Positions 15,643-49,095 of a stretch of DNA of 49,200 bases are shown here, piece by piece. The position numbers and the translations under genes were made by a program. The stretch is from Rhodanobacteraceae bacterium (lineage in GTDB: Bacteria > Pseudomonadota > Gammaproteobacteria > Xanthomonadales > Rhodanobacteraceae). Under the pieces are notes generated by a model. The model was not told the DNA's origin. It saw only the letters and a program-made list of their open reading frames with translations, and ran no database searches. The first letter of the stretch is position 1; every line of letters begins with the position of its first letter. The stretch covers positions 1-49,200 of the forward strand of contig JAACZU010000021.1 in assembly GCA_009996615.1 (NCBI GenBank), read 5' to 3'.

Positions 15643-15726
15643 GCGTAGGCTGGGCGCCCGCAAGCCGACCGGCAGGAACCCAAGCAATGGCATCGCGCCG
15701 GCCGCGCTACGCGCGTCCAGCCTACG
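15643..15726. repeat. GTAGGCTGG...CCAGCCTAC inverted repeat overlapping the kinase stop codon
   Basis: GTAGGCTGGGC at about 15645-15655 and CCAGCCTAC at 15717-15725 are inverted, with a variable centre. The right arm contains the TAG stop of the histidine kinase gene (15722-15724), so the repeat appears to define where the protein ends. Confidence 0.65.
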
Positions 15727-17032
15727 CCTGCTGCGGCAGGACCAGGCTGACCGCGAGGCCGCCCTCGGGCCGGTTGGCCAGGTGCACGCGGCCGCCGTGC
15801 GCCTCGGCGATCTCGCGCACGAGCGCGAGGCCAAGGCCCGAGCCGCTGCGCTTGGTCGAGTAGAACGGCACCAGCGCGTTCGCCAGCACGGTCTCGCTCA
15901 TGCCGCTGCCGCGGTCGGCGACCTCGATGCGCAGTTCACGCGCGCCGCGCGCCACCGCCAGCTCGATCGCCTCGGCCGGCCCGCCCGACTCGTGCGCGTT
16001 CTTGAGCAGGTTGATCAGCGCCTGCTCGACCTGCGCGCGGTCGAACCAGCCCGGCTGCCCCGGCAGCGTGCCGGCGACGCGGAAAGGATAGTGCCGCGCC
16101 AGCGCATCGAGGAACGGCGCCCACGCGATCGATTCCGGCCGCGGCGTGGGCAGTTTTGCAAAGCGCGCATAGCCCTGGATGAAGCCCTCCAGGTGCCGCG
16201 TGCGCTCCTCGACCGTGTCGAACACGACGTTCAGGCGTTTCACGTCGCCGAGGCGCGCCAGCTCGCGCCCGGAGTGCGCCAGCGAGCGGATCGGTCCGAG
16301 CGAGTTGTTCAGCTCGTGGCTGATCACGCGGATCACCTTCTTCCAGGTCGCCACCTCCTGCCGCGCCAGCTCGCGCGTGAGCCGCTTGATCTGGAACAGC
16401 CGGTGCGCGCGGCCCTGCAGGTTGAACGTGCGCTGCGACAGGTGGAAGGTTTCCTCCTCGTCGTCGATCGCCGCGCTGAACAGGCCGTCGCCGTGCTCGG
16501 CGATCGCGCGCGCGAGCGGCGCGGGCGCGCCGGCGACGATCGCGTCGAAACGCTCGCCCTGAAACGGCCGGCCGCCGTTGAGCAGCTGCCGCGCGGCGAG
16601 GTTCGCATACACGACGTGGCCGCGCGCCTCGACCAGCACCAGCGCGGTCGGCGTGTTCTGCACCACGGTGTCGAGCAGCAGCTCGCGCTGGAACAGGTGC
16701 TGGCGCTGCTCGCGCAGCACGCGACCGAGCTCGTTGTGCGCGGCGACCAGCTCGCCGAGCTCGTCGCGCCGGCGCGTGCCGATCGAGAAGCTGAAGTCGC
16801 CGTCGCGGAACGCGACCACGCTGCCCGACAGCGCGCGGATCAGCGCCCCGACCGGCCGCGCCAGCAGCCGCGCGAACACGAGCGCTGGGATCGCCAATGC
16901 CAGCACGGCGGCCGCTGCGCCGAGCCACGGCGAACCGAGCGCGGTCGTCGCCCACGCCGCCAGCGCCGCCGAAGCGACCAGCACGACCGCGAGCGCGGCG
17001 GCGAGCTTTCCTTCCAGCGAGATGAGGCGCAT
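15722..17032 (-). CDS. Membrane sensor histidine kinase, NtrY-like
   Basis: The 436-residue protein has two N-terminal helices (about 10-55), a HAMP-like segment (about 58-110), a PAS-like domain (about 115-180) and a kinase core. The H-box is [18 protein letters not shown] with His239 as the predicted phosphorylation site; the ATPase domain shows [11 protein letters not shown] (N-box), DRGSGM (G1) and GSGLGLAL (G2). It is the partner of the NtrC-type regulator just upstream and the last gene of the exporter operon. The ATG at 17032 directly follows a repeat and has no visible Shine-Dalgarno sequence. The periplasmic loop is very short, so sensing may be within the membrane or through the PAS domain. 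Confidence 0.9.
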
Positions 17033-17033
17033 G

Positions 17034-17187
17034 GGAGCCGGGATTAGGGAATCGGGATTGGGGATTCGGGAAAAGCTGGAGCGGTCATGGCGATCGGAAC
17101 TGGACCCACGCATTCGGGCCAGCAGGCCTTCGCGATATGTTGCGCCAGTCGCGCGCGCATGCGTGTCCTTTCACCAATCCCGAATCC

Positions 17188-17212
<25 letters not shown>
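17034..17212. repeat. GGGATTAGGGAATC inverted-repeat element between regulator and kinase
   Basis: Left arm CCGGGATTAGGGAATCGGG (from 17038) and right arm CCCTAATCCCGAATCCCGG (to 17211) flank a variable centre of about 100 bases. It fills the whole gap; the last four codons and the TAG of the regulator (G-I-R-D-stop) are read from the right arm. Confidence 0.85.
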
Positions 17213-18531
<1,319 letters not shown>

Positions 18532-18602
18532 GGAGTCGTGGTCGCTGGGTTGGTGTCGGCGCATGGCGGCTGGGATGCAGCCACGCGAGGAAGGGTTGCG
18601 TT

Positions 18603-18775
18603 TTAGGGGCGAGGGACCAGGGGCTAGGGATTAGGGGCGAGGGCGCAAGAATCGGCAACCGGATCAAGTGTGCGATGGTGCTACAAAAGGCGCCGGCTGT
18701 AGGACCTTTCCCGGTCGGAACCGGGGTGAGATTGTCGCGCCCTCGCCCCTGTCCCCTAACCCCTGGCCCCTGCTC
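18603..18775. repeat. GGGGCGAGGGACCAGGGGC inverted-repeat element
   Basis: A left arm of AGGGGCGAGGGACCAGGGG and TAGGGATTAGGGGCGAGGG units and a right arm of CCCTCGCCCCTGTCCCC and TAACCCCTGGCCCCTG flank about 80 bases. It occupies most of the 246-bp gap between permease 2 and the regulator. Its sequence differs from the GGGATTCGGG family but the layout is the same. Confidence 0.8.
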
Positions 18776-19992: not shown

Positions 19993-20103
19993 TAGATCCG
20001 GGATTGGGGATGGGGGATTGGGGATTCGGGCAAGGCGGTGCGGGATGACGTGGCGGCTTCAGCTTTCACGAATCCCGAATCCCCCATCCCGAATCCCGGC
20101 TCT
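19993..20103. repeat. GGGATTGGGGATG inverted-repeat element between the two permeases
   Basis: Left arm CCGGGATTGGGGATGGGGG near 19998-20016 and right arm CCCCCATCCCGAATCCCGG near 20081-20099 are complementary. The centre is short and variable. It fills the 114-bp gap from the stop of permease 1 to within a few bases of the ATG of permease 2. Confidence 0.85.
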
Positions 20104-21408: not shown

Positions 21409-21478
21409 GGGGGGCCGGGAATGGGGAATGGGGAATGGGGAATCGCCAGGGCAGGAGCCGCAGCGGCTGTCGTCGAAT

Positions 21479-22228
<750 letters not shown>

Positions 22229-22241
22229 CGGCTTGGCCTCG

Positions 22242-22355
22242 CAGGGAATCGGGAATGGGGAATGGGGAATGGGGAATGGGGAATGGGGAATGGGGACATC
22301 GAGCGTGGGGCGGGAGGCTTTTCGATTCCCTATTCCCCATTCCCGATTCCCGGCG
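22242..22355. repeat. Inverted-repeat element with a heptanucleotide tandem array
   Basis: The left arm contains six consecutive GGGAATG units at about 22251-22292; the right arm is GATTCCCTATTCCCCATTCCC-like near 22323-22350. It fills the 133-bp gap between the adaptor and ATPase genes. The 7-base unit is not a multiple of three, but it lies outside the chosen coding regions. Confidence 0.85.
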
Positions 22356-22361
22356 TTGTCG

Positions 22362-23633
22362 CTAACGCGACAACGCCACGCGCTGCACACCCTTGAACTC
22401 GTCGGTGCCGGAAATCACGACGCGGTCGCCTTCCTTGACGCCGCTGACGATCTCGACCGCGTTCAGGCTGGTCGCGCCGACCTGGATCGGCGTGCGTTCG
22501 GCGACGTTGCCGCGCACGACGTAGGCGATGCGGCCGGCGCCGGTGTCGACGAACGGACCACGCTCGACCATCAGCACGTCCGGGTGCTCGTCCATCAGGA
22601 TGCGCGTGGTCAGGCGCTGGTTCTGGCGCAGGCCGGCCGGCTTGGCGTCGCCGAAGCGCACGCGCCCGGTGACCTGGCCGTCGATGACCTCGGGCGAGAT
22701 CGCGCTGACCTCGCCGGCGTACTTGCCGCTGGCATCCTGGATTTCCGCGGCCATGCCGACGCCGAGGTCGTGCGCGAACACCTCCGGCACCTGCACCTCG
22801 ATCTCGAGCGCACTGAGGTCGATCACCGTCAGCACCGGCGCGCTCGCCGCGACGTTGGCGCGCTGCTGCACGATCAGCTGGCCGACCTGGCCGTCGACCG
22901 GCGAGCGCAGCTTGAGTTCGTCGACCTGGCGCACGAGGTCGTCGACCAGCAGCCTCTGGCGGTCCAGCGCGAAGCGCTTGGTCTTCAGTTCGAACGCGAG
23001 GCTATCGCGGTCCAGGCCGATGTTGTTGCGCGCATTGACCTCGGCCAGGCGGGCCTTCGCCAGCGCGTCCTTCGCGCGCAGCACGGTCATCTCGGCCTGC
23101 GCGCCCATCTCGTACGCCTTCTGGTTGCGCTCGACCTCGCGCTCGGCGGTTTCGCGGTCGATCACCGCCTGCTCCAGCGCCATCTGCGAGGCAGCCGCGT
23201 TCTTTCGGTTGTCGATCGCGGCGCGCTCGACCTCGATCGCCAGGCTGTCGAGCGTGGCCTGTTCCTGCTTGAGCTTGTTGGCCAGCTCGGGCGACTCGAC
23301 CTCGGCGAGCACGTCGCCCTTCTTCACCTTGTCGCCGGCCTGCACCTGCAGCGTCACCGTGCCGGCGCTGCGCGCGTAAAGCGTCGGGCTGACCGCGGCG
23401 ACGACCTTGCCCTGCACGGAGACGTCGCGCACCAGCGTGCCGCGCTTGACCTCGGCGATGCGCAGGCGCGCACTGCTGGCCGAAGAATCGGCCGACATCA
23501 GGCGGGCGACCGTCGGCATCGCCAGCAACCCCGCCACCAGCACGGCGGCGCCAAGGCCACCCCAGACGAGCAGCTTCCGACGGTCTTTCTGCGGCGCGAG
23601 GCGACGGTCCTGGGCCGAAGTATCGCGAATCAT
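22362..23633 (-). CDS. Periplasmic membrane-fusion adaptor (HlyD/MacA-like)
   Basis: The 423-residue protein has a cytoplasmic N-terminus, one membrane helix (about 22-42), a lipoyl-like half motif (AGTVTLQVQAGDKVKKGDVLAEVESPEL), a long coiled-coil hairpin (about 105-215), a second lipoyl half (LRSPVDGQVGQLIVQQ) and beta-barrel/membrane-proximal domains. It should bridge the MacB-like permeases to an outer-membrane channel, probably TolC; none is encoded here. It is the first gene of the six-gene operon, about 40 bases behind a sigma-54 promoter, with GGAG upstream of the ATG at 23633. Confidence 0.92.
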   Translation of the reverse strand: MIRDTSAQDRRLAPQKDRRKLLVWGGLGAAVLVAGLLAMPTVARLMSADSSASSARLRIAEVKRGTLVRDVSVQGKVVAAVSPTLYARSAGTVTLQVQAGDKVKKGDVLAEVESPELANKLKQEQATLDSLAIEVERAAIDNRKNAAASQMALEQAVIDRETAEREVERNQKAYEMGAQAEMTVLRAKDALAKARLAEVNARNNIGLDRDSLAFELKTKRFALDRQRLLVDDLVRQVDELKLRSPVDGQVGQLIVQQRANVAASAPVLTVIDLSALEIEVQVPEVFAHDLGVGMAAEIQDASGKYAGEVSAISPEVIDGQVTGRVRFGDAKPAGLRQNQRLTTRILMDEHPDVLMVERGPFVDTGAGRIAYVVRGNVAERTPIQVGATSLNAVEIVSGVKEGDRVVISGTDEFKGVQRVALSR

Positions 23634-23684
23634 CCAGCATCTCCATGCGGCCCACCGCGATGGGGGCCTCCTGGCGAGGCTTAG

Positions 23685-23699
23685 GCAAGCCGCGTGCCA
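23685..23699 (-). promoter_or_regulatory. Sigma-54 (-24/-12) promoter of the exporter/two-component operon
   Basis: On the minus strand TGGCACGCGGCTTGC matches the consensus TGGCAC-N5-TTGC without a mismatch, with the invariant GG and GC ten bases apart. Transcription should start near 23673, giving a leader of about 40 bases before the adaptor ATG. The downstream operon encodes an NtrC-type activator, which makes a chance match unlikely. Confidence 0.9.
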
Positions 23700-23704
23700 A
23701 AGCA

Positions 23705-23717
23705 CAAGCTATTGATT
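23705..23717 (-). promoter_or_regulatory. Predicted IHF binding site
   Basis: AATCAATAGCTTG on the minus strand fits the IHF consensus WATCAA-N4-TTR exactly. It lies in a short AT-rich stretch between the sigma-54 promoter and the candidate activator sites, the usual place for DNA bending at NtrC-type promoters. Confidence 0.7.
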
Positions 23718-23746
23718 TTCATAACAAAACGAGCGATCGCGCGGCA

Positions 23747-23787
23747 GCGGACAGTGTCCGCCGCCGGCGCCGGACAAGCCGCGGACA
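23747..23787. promoter_or_regulatory. Candidate upstream activator sites for the NtrC-type regulator
   Basis: A perfect palindrome GCGGACAGTGTCCGC (23747-23761) is followed by two further half-sites, CCGGACA (23770-23776) and GCGGACA (23781-23787), 11 bases apart. They lie about 75-115 bases upstream of the predicted start, the normal range for enhancer sites. Binding by the operon's own regulator is inferred. Confidence 0.7.
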
Positions 23788-48672: not shown

Positions 48673-49095
48673 CGCACGTTTGCCAGAAACACGGCGCGGA
48701 TTAATAGCTAAGAACAGAATAGTAATTATCGTAGGCATAATGAATCCCTTCAGATATGAAAGCGGATGCGTGCCTTTTAGGAAACGGAATGGAAGGTCAA
48801 AGAAATACGCCCAATAGTGCGTTGCTATAAGAGTAGCGATGGCAATCCACATGCCATACAGGGCTGGTCGTTTATTCAAGACTACCAGAGCCAGGCTGCT
48901 GATGATAAAGACACGAAGGATGGATTGTATGTGCCGATATAGATCATAAGTATTGGCATTACCAACATCGTAGATATCTGTACCAGAGCCAAGATACAAG
49001 TCGTAGAGAGTGTATGTGTGGTAGAAGATCAGGAGGCCAGCGAGCGCATAAATTACCAGCCGCCCGAAAAGGAGTAATCTGCGAGATGCCTGCAT
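48667..49095 (-). CDS. Cassette A: integral membrane protein of unknown function
   Basis: The 142-residue protein has four hydrophobic helices (about 10-30, 60-80, 84-106 and 115-135) and a basic C-terminus (RRVSGKRAA). Codon use is AT-richer than anything else in the window, a sign of foreign origin. No family recognised. A purine-rich GGAAAAG lies just before the ATG at 49095. Its TAA stop is inside the attC core. Confidence 0.8.
   Translation of the reverse strand: MQASRRLLLFGRLVIYALAGLLIFYHTYTLYDLYLGSGTDIYDVGNANTYDLYRHIQSILRVFIISSLALVVLNKRPALYGMWIAIATLIATHYWAYFFDLPFRFLKGTHPLSYLKGFIMPTIITILFLAINPRRVSGKRAA

Follow-up and report, generated by a model that had tools for sequence, protein, structure and literature searches.

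The window (the whole 49.2-kb stretch of DNA that was analysed) carries a six-gene operon on its minus strand, in which a promoter is followed by genes for a periplasmic adaptor, an ABC ATPase, two permeases (P1 and P2), an NtrC-type response regulator, and a sensor kinase. The HlyD/MacA-like adaptor (22362-23633, minus strand; 423 residues) starts with MIRDTSAQDR, a start set by a tag common to 68 homologs. This tag, M-IRDTSAQDR (window 23633-23604), is near-invariant, precedes the first hydrophobic helix, occurs in gammaproteobacterial, betaproteobacterial, and myxobacterial homologs, and is triplicated in locus L150. The nearest NCBIfam model for the ATPase (21479-22228, minus strand) is DarD, an identity that we rejected because the score (259.4 bits) lies below the cutoff (375 bits). 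Both P1 (20104-21408, minus strand) and P2 (18778-19989, minus strand) combine a MacB periplasmic core with an FtsX domain in Pfam searches. The structure model of P1 (pLDDT, 80; pTM, 0.67) has a MacB-like predicted fold, with a four-helix layout and the periplasmic core between helices 1 and 2 (Pfam MacB_PCD and Foldseek). Its best Foldseek match was MacB (E = 2.9e-18), and BceAB/BceB structures matched weakly (E = 9e-6).

A first-pass annotation of this DNA had proposed a MacA/MacB-like exporter. The permeases are split MacB-type halves, the ATPase has a gene of its own, and the system is not MacB itself: against NF007826 (cutoff, 966 bits), the separately encoded ATPase and permeases scored 218 bits and 59 and 75 bits, respectively. 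The adaptor fell below the curated cutoff for MacA, which was likewise rejected. The ADOP duplicated permease (TIGR03434; 622 bits) was set aside because P1 (163.6 bits) and P2 (202.3 bits) each match one half.

In relatives from the family Rhodanobacteraceae, P1-P2 pairs are arrayed in tandem, from 2 to at least 7 of them per operon, and a single ATPase gene was seen alongside them. The numbers of P1 genes in L297 to L312, 16 longer stretches from relatives, were 7, 6, 4, 3, 4, 6, 4, 7, 6, 5, 5, 6, 2, 0, 2, and 4, respectively. One ATPase gene was reached or recognized in 12 of these stretches (none was seen in L299, L304, L308, and L310), and the promoter was seen in 11; four stretches stop before the adaptor, and one has no exporter. 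All five junctions of the window operon (17040-17202, 18605-18772, 20014-20083, 21417-21534, and 22244-22351) hold inverted heptamer-repeat arrays, such as (GGGAWTN)n...(NAWTCCC)n, and the three junctions that were folded form hairpins (z-scores of -6.9, -4.2, and -3.9). Similar inverted heptamer pairs lie at four places in the operon of genome G009 (L046), with few or none in the other relatives scanned.

The regulator and the loop-less kinase

The regulator gene (17188-18564, minus strand) encodes a receiver, a sigma-54 activator AAA+ domain, and a Fis-type helix-turn-helix, all above the Pfam gathering scores, and a GAYTGA loop was recognized by eye. The earlier proposal that the operon encodes its own NtrC-type activator is thus supported. 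The kinase (15722-17032, minus strand) consists of two hydrophobic helices joined by a very short loop, followed by HAMP and HATPase domains; the first ATG of its open reading frame lies at 17113, and positions 17113-17033 read through heptamer repeats. Assignment of the pair to PrsR/PrsK was rejected, with the regulator scoring 335.6 bits against 502.6 (TIGR02915) and the kinase 56.6 bits against 300 (TIGR02916).

Across 45 distinct kinase N-terminal segments (77 of 117 kinases could be anchored), hydropathy read with our own threshold rather than a dedicated predictor revealed either two hydrophobic stretches or one continuous stretch, the gap ranging from almost nil to about 20 residues. 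By this measure, the kinases have no extracytoplasmic sensor domain. Because the kinase is almost without a periplasmic loop, we infer transporter-coupled (Bce-like) sensing, and the presence of kinase and exporter in one operon resembles modules in which the transporter would act as the sensor.

This likeness leads to one account of the whole locus, in which a Bce-like resistance system senses a foreign antimicrobial peptide through the exporter and relays the signal to the loop-less kinase, with the secreted proteins and peptidases described below being protective. The short kinase gap beside a MacB-type transporter fits this account, as do the weak fold matches of BceAB structures to P1 (E of about 1e-5), the occurrence of M19 and M90 peptidases and of TolC within the candidate regulon or close to it, and the flux-sensing precedent outlined in the accessible part of PMC10314905. 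However, the permeases are much better matched by MacB (E = 3e-18) than by BceB (E = 9e-6), P1 has the four-helix MacB-like layout and not the 10-helix BceB-type permease, and the regulator is of the NtrC type. The regulators of Bce systems are of the OmpR type. On balance, we consider Bce-like resistance a serious contender whose chances fall slightly short of even.

The probable sigma-54 promoter and its conserved half-sites

The promoter, like the operon, is read on the minus strand, and the element coordinates given by the first-pass annotation proved correct. A -24/-12 element (TGGCACGCGGCTTGC, 23685-23699) matches the sigma-54 pattern perfectly, with GG at -24 and GC at -12 in 10-bp spacing, and its position is kept in orthologous operons; from the usual sigma-54 geometry, transcription would be expected to start near 23673. 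Upstream lie an IHF-consensus-like site (AATCAATAGCTTG, 23705-23717, minus strand), the palindrome GCGGACA-N-TGTCCGC (GCGGACAGTGTCCGC on the plus strand, 23747-23761), which comprises two diverging putative activator half-sites, and two further putative half-sites reading TGTCCG on the minus strand (CGGACA on the plus strand) at 23771-23776 and 23782-23787. The promoter thus holds four TGTCC/GGACA half-sites in all, two of them within the palindrome, and the cluster is conserved. The genome from which the window derives has one rpoN gene.

Matches of this kind might arise by chance resemblance in GC-rich DNA, in which case the operon would be transcribed otherwise. The exact palindrome and the exact -24/-12 pattern each occur once in the 49.2-kb window, and the exact palindrome occurs at one place only in the genome. 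Once mismatches are allowed (up to two in the palindrome and one in the -24/-12 pattern), 49 of 100 shuffles equal the number of matches in the window, so that neither element alone is compelling. The palindrome is also unenriched genome-wide (33 places versus 48 for the backwards pattern, at up to two mismatches) and was rejected as a regulon marker.

What stands above chance is the combination of elements together with its conservation. We placed the adaptor start by the N-terminal tag, which led from 67 of 150 sequences to an adaptor and yielded 61 distinct upstream regions; 83 of 149 loci, many starting inside the operon, had no tagged adaptor and were left out of the 61. All 68 tagged adaptors match the window protein at E <= 1e-10. 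A sigma-54 score of at least 12.5 was reached in all 61 orthologous promoters, with score weights and thresholds that we set after the first promoters had been seen. The sigma-54 element was accompanied by at least two half-sites in 59 of the 61, compared with 38 of 2,440 random windows from the same loci, a control figure that may count windows overlapping true promoters. The stricter pattern TGGCAYG-N5-TGC was present in 52 of the 61 (the scan itself required GG and GC). This conservation across orthologous operons, whose absence would have refuted the proposal by the first-pass annotation's own criterion, leads us to reject the chance explanation as highly improbable, and it supports, with the perfect -24/-12 match, the enhancer-type sigma-54 promoter proposed there.

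The association extends to loci identified through the regulator. A regulator relative at E <= 1e-100 was present in 49 of a set of 61 genomes, the window's genome included. Among 52 stretches with regulator relatives that were examined for promoter motifs (again including the window), GGACA-N-TGTCC occurred in 10, always 50 to 61 bp upstream of the sigma-54 element. At 48 of 80 named regulator loci, a sigma-54 element on the operon strand was preceded by at least two TGTCCG/CGGACA sites in its 130 bp of upstream sequence, versus 2 of 80 for the opposite strand and 1 of 400 shuffled loci. These loci include Lysobacter, Xanthomonas, Stenotrophomonas, Luteimonas, Solimonas, Massilia, Janthinobacterium, Rhizobacter, and one Kofleriaceae bin. 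In two genomes (G039 and G056), exporter genes are absent from the sequence retrieved around the regulator gene, and the adaptor homologs at other places in these genomes (L196 and L203; E = 5e-100 and 2e-99) keep the half-sites and the sigma-54 element. Motif and exporter are thus tied in trans, since these exporters retain the promoter although the regulator gene is elsewhere, and the two cases support, short of proof, the regulator as the protein that uses the TGTCCG motif.

The conserved unit, as read from these promoters, is the cluster of putative TGTCCG half-sites and not the 15-bp palindrome. GGACA-N-TGTCC was found in 13 of the 61 orthologous promoters, TGTCC-NN-GGACA in 22, and the exact palindrome in 5, and some Massilia and Janthinobacterium promoters contain GGACA direct repeats 8 to 9 bp apart. 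Half-sites are densest 50 to 100 bp upstream of the -24 element, and their spacing differs by lineage. Because the arrangements differ among promoters, the reported palindrome is one form of a looser half-site cluster; of the binding motif originally proposed, TGTCCG stands as a likely activator half-site, but the palindrome does not generalize. The same applies to the IHF site, which is an exact consensus in the window but was rejected as a general defining part: the consensus WATCAANNNNTTR is found on the same strand in only 17 of the 61 promoters (21 on either strand). General among the orthologous promoters is an AT-rich spacer, with a mean A+T content of 56% over the 40 bp before the -24 element versus 31% further upstream.

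A second sigma-54-like match in the window (TGGCATGTGGATTGC, 48842-48856, minus strand) lies within an open reading frame and is probably due to chance.

Small secreted proteins and the wider candidate regulon

The combined pattern TGTCCG-N25-55-TGGCAYG-N5-TGC has two hits in the window's genome, namely, the exporter operon and C14:69843-69915 (backwards control, one match; in 16 genomes of the genus, 22 hits versus 6 control matches). The second hit precedes a gene for a protein of 119 residues that, judged by eye, seems to have a signal peptide and whose C terminus is PRRPSYRWQSLVPGAIK, ending in RWQSLVPGAIK. The protein had no match in Pfam, NCBIfam, or PADLOC. An M90 peptidase gene lies directly downstream on the same strand. 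A back-translated WQSLxPG pattern was detected in 35 of 37 family-sample genomes, with no control match in those 37, and at one place per genome except for a genome with two, one of which appeared spurious by eye. Among the small proteins, the C-terminal residues are invariant and the middle is variable, and codons vary synonymously.

In 14 of 16 genomes of the genus, the small gene is preceded by a sigma-54 element with two or more half-sites no further than 130 bp from it. In the two exceptions, the half-sites lie slightly further upstream (G003) or the small protein lacks sites (G001). Three additional cases with promoters of this kind (G019, G169, and G232) are not independent because they were found through the promoter-pattern match. 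Genome G006 keeps the small gene and the half-sites but has no regulator match at E <= 1e-100. In 10 relatives from other genera (L225 to L235 without L233), a related protein ending mostly in LGWQSLLPGSIQ lacks the promoter.

These proteins raise the possibility of a dedicated secretion system, in which Sec-exported small proteins (of the WQSLxPG or the TLxTVxV-repeat type) would be cargo that is picked up in the periplasm and ejected via TolC, with the conserved C terminus as a tag. Exporter and small proteins share the promoter pattern, suggesting coregulation; the invariant C termini, variable middles, and synonymous codon changes are also consistent with a tag, a promoter of this type precedes TolC in two g11 genomes, and the accessible part of PMC5985334 provides a precedent for periplasmic pick-up. 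On the other hand, beyond the genus, the majority of family relatives with the small protein show no sigma-54 control of it, and many genomes contain the exporter without the WQSLxPG pattern (31 of 37 named genomes). We regard a dedicated secretion system as a tentative reading, less probable than Bce-like resistance.

Scanning 197 family genomes with the promoter pattern returned 62 hits in 45 genomes, against 15 backwards-control matches; annotation covered the hits with a locus and 15 fetched stretches. Hits with at least three half-sites precede exporter adaptors and small WQSLxPG proteins, as well as extra P1-type permeases (L201, L205, L335, L337, and L338), TolC-type proteins (L331, Pfam OEP at 8e-24, and L334, by eye), an M19 dipeptidase (L202, E = 2e-64, and L339, by eye), a DUF922 protein (L204, E = 1e-29), and a repeat-bearing secreted protein (L346). 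The same class holds amidohydrolase-like and alpha/beta-hydrolase-like genes (L327 and L328). Promoters of this kind also precede genes for secreted proteins with TLxTVxVRP-like repeats in Xanthomonas codiaei (L283), Stenotrophomonas nematodicola (L290), and genome G057 (L113). Of these repeat proteins, the two that were scanned had no significant Pfam family, with one subthreshold match to DUF3180 (E = 0.013). At all three loci, the stretch from the sigma-54 element to the start of the repeat protein contains a second conserved sequence, GTGTACTACCTTACTACCACACCACT, which is identical or almost identical among them and may be the site of another regulator.

In 37 named genomes, the scan returned 30 hits against 12 control matches, and single-site hits in this set are accordingly unreliable. 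Several single-half-site hits of the family scan, identified by eye (L318 and L329, both glnA-like; L344, glnK-like; and L317, flgB-like), were dismissed as ordinary sigma-54 genes with other activators, in which TGTCCG occurs by chance. Two Massilia loci with one half-site each (L266 and L267; PEP-CTERM-like by eye) were not counted in the regulon; both have ACGTGTCCGTCTT upstream of the sigma-54 element, which may reflect a PrsR site that resembles the TGTCCG half-site. At L101, L330, and L348, homologous PilZ-like proteins (by eye) each follow a sigma-54 element with one TGTCCG.

A proposed circuit and its relation to known systems

The site is very probably a sigma-54 promoter activated by the NtrC-type regulator of the same operon. 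In the proposed mechanism, the kinase, being almost without a periplasmic domain, would read the state of the membrane or of the neighboring exporter and phosphorylate the regulator, which, judging from conservation, would bind the TGTCCG cluster about 40 to 125 bp upstream of the -24 element. The DNA would bend through the AT-rich spacer in general and through IHF in some species, and the AAA+ domain would open the sigma-54 polymerase, as is established for this family. Induction of the operon would include the regulator itself, predicting positive feedback. In Dokdonella, taken here as the genus of the window, where the promoter pattern recurs before the unlinked gene for the small secreted protein (RWQSLVPGAIK), the same regulator would turn on that gene; in relatives with the pattern at other genes, its targets would also include TolC, a dipeptidase, additional permeases, or further small secreted proteins. 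Together, the products may assemble into a tripartite machine resembling MacAB-TolC that would expel peptides or small proteins from the periplasm.

A further speculative reading joins the two accounts given above: a proteobacterial, sigma-54-driven flux-sensing module doubling as a secretion circuit, in which the loop-less kinase would read the work of the MacB-type exporter and the regulon would supply both the exporter and a Sec-exported cargo or signal with an invariant C-terminal tag. The tagged protein would be a fast-evolving one, represented by RWQSLVPGAIK in Dokdonella and by TLxTVxV-repeat proteins in other lineages. We hold this combination to be unlikely. If it were true, secretion load would set the expression of cargo and machine. 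If the kinase reads transporter activity, flux sensing would extend to sigma-54 control in Gram-negative bacteria, and if the small proteins are cargo, MacB-type machines would gain a defined class of protein substrates and a short export tag. What began as an isolated promoter becomes a regulon open to testing, for which an activator, an operator, an exporter, an outer membrane channel, and a secreted partner are predicted; the genera concerned include bacteria of soil and water as well as plant associates.

In the open-licence literature, we found no paper describing this regulator, operator, exporter, its secreted partners, or the WQSLVPG motif. Term searches of PMC4641369 and PMC3224663 found nothing on the system, and PMC8657755, as far as its text was available, describes three NtrC-family proteins of Xanthomonas oryzae as unstudied. 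A 2025 survey (PMC12316311, seen in part) reports that antimicrobial-peptide ABC systems of COG0577/COG1136 are enriched for sigma-54 promoters in gamma-Proteobacteria, Opitutia, and Bacteroidia, and it calls the link new. The window operon has the same permease class, for which the accessible portion of the survey names no dedicated activator, operator, kinase class, or secreted partner.

MacAB-TolC, which picks up a Sec-exported peptide in the periplasm and ejects it through TolC (PMC5985334, in the part available), resembles the present system in its adaptor, its MacB-type permease fold, and, in some relatives, a TolC coregulated according to the promoter pattern. In MacAB-TolC, ATPase and permease are fused in a single MacB, whereas the exporter described here has an ATPase of its own plus two distinct permeases, scores below the MacA and MacB cutoffs, and in some relatives includes 2 to at least 7 tandem permease pairs. 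The darobactin exporter DarBCD is similar in that, among NCBIfam models, the ATPase is matched best by DarD, although the score lies below the model cutoff and the comparison concerns the DarD component alone. BceRS-BceAB (PMC10314905, consulted in part) likewise places a kinase without a sensor domain beside an FtsX-type transporter and groups transporter and two-component genes in one unit, whereas the permease here is MacB-type, the regulator NtrC-type, and the promoter of the sigma-54 type. For a sigma-54 regulator that governs tagged secreted proteins, the nearest precedent is the PEP-CTERM/PrsK-PrsR regulon (Haft et al. 2006, PMC1569441). In the portion of that study available to us, an NtrC-like regulator and a kinase are likewise associated with sigma-54 sites and an upstream activator motif before unlinked genes whose secreted products have a short C-terminal motif in common. 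In the present case, that motif is WQSLxPG rather than PEP-CTERM, the regulator and kinase fall short of the cutoffs of the PrsR and PrsK models, and the predicted main target is an operon for a MacB-type exporter.
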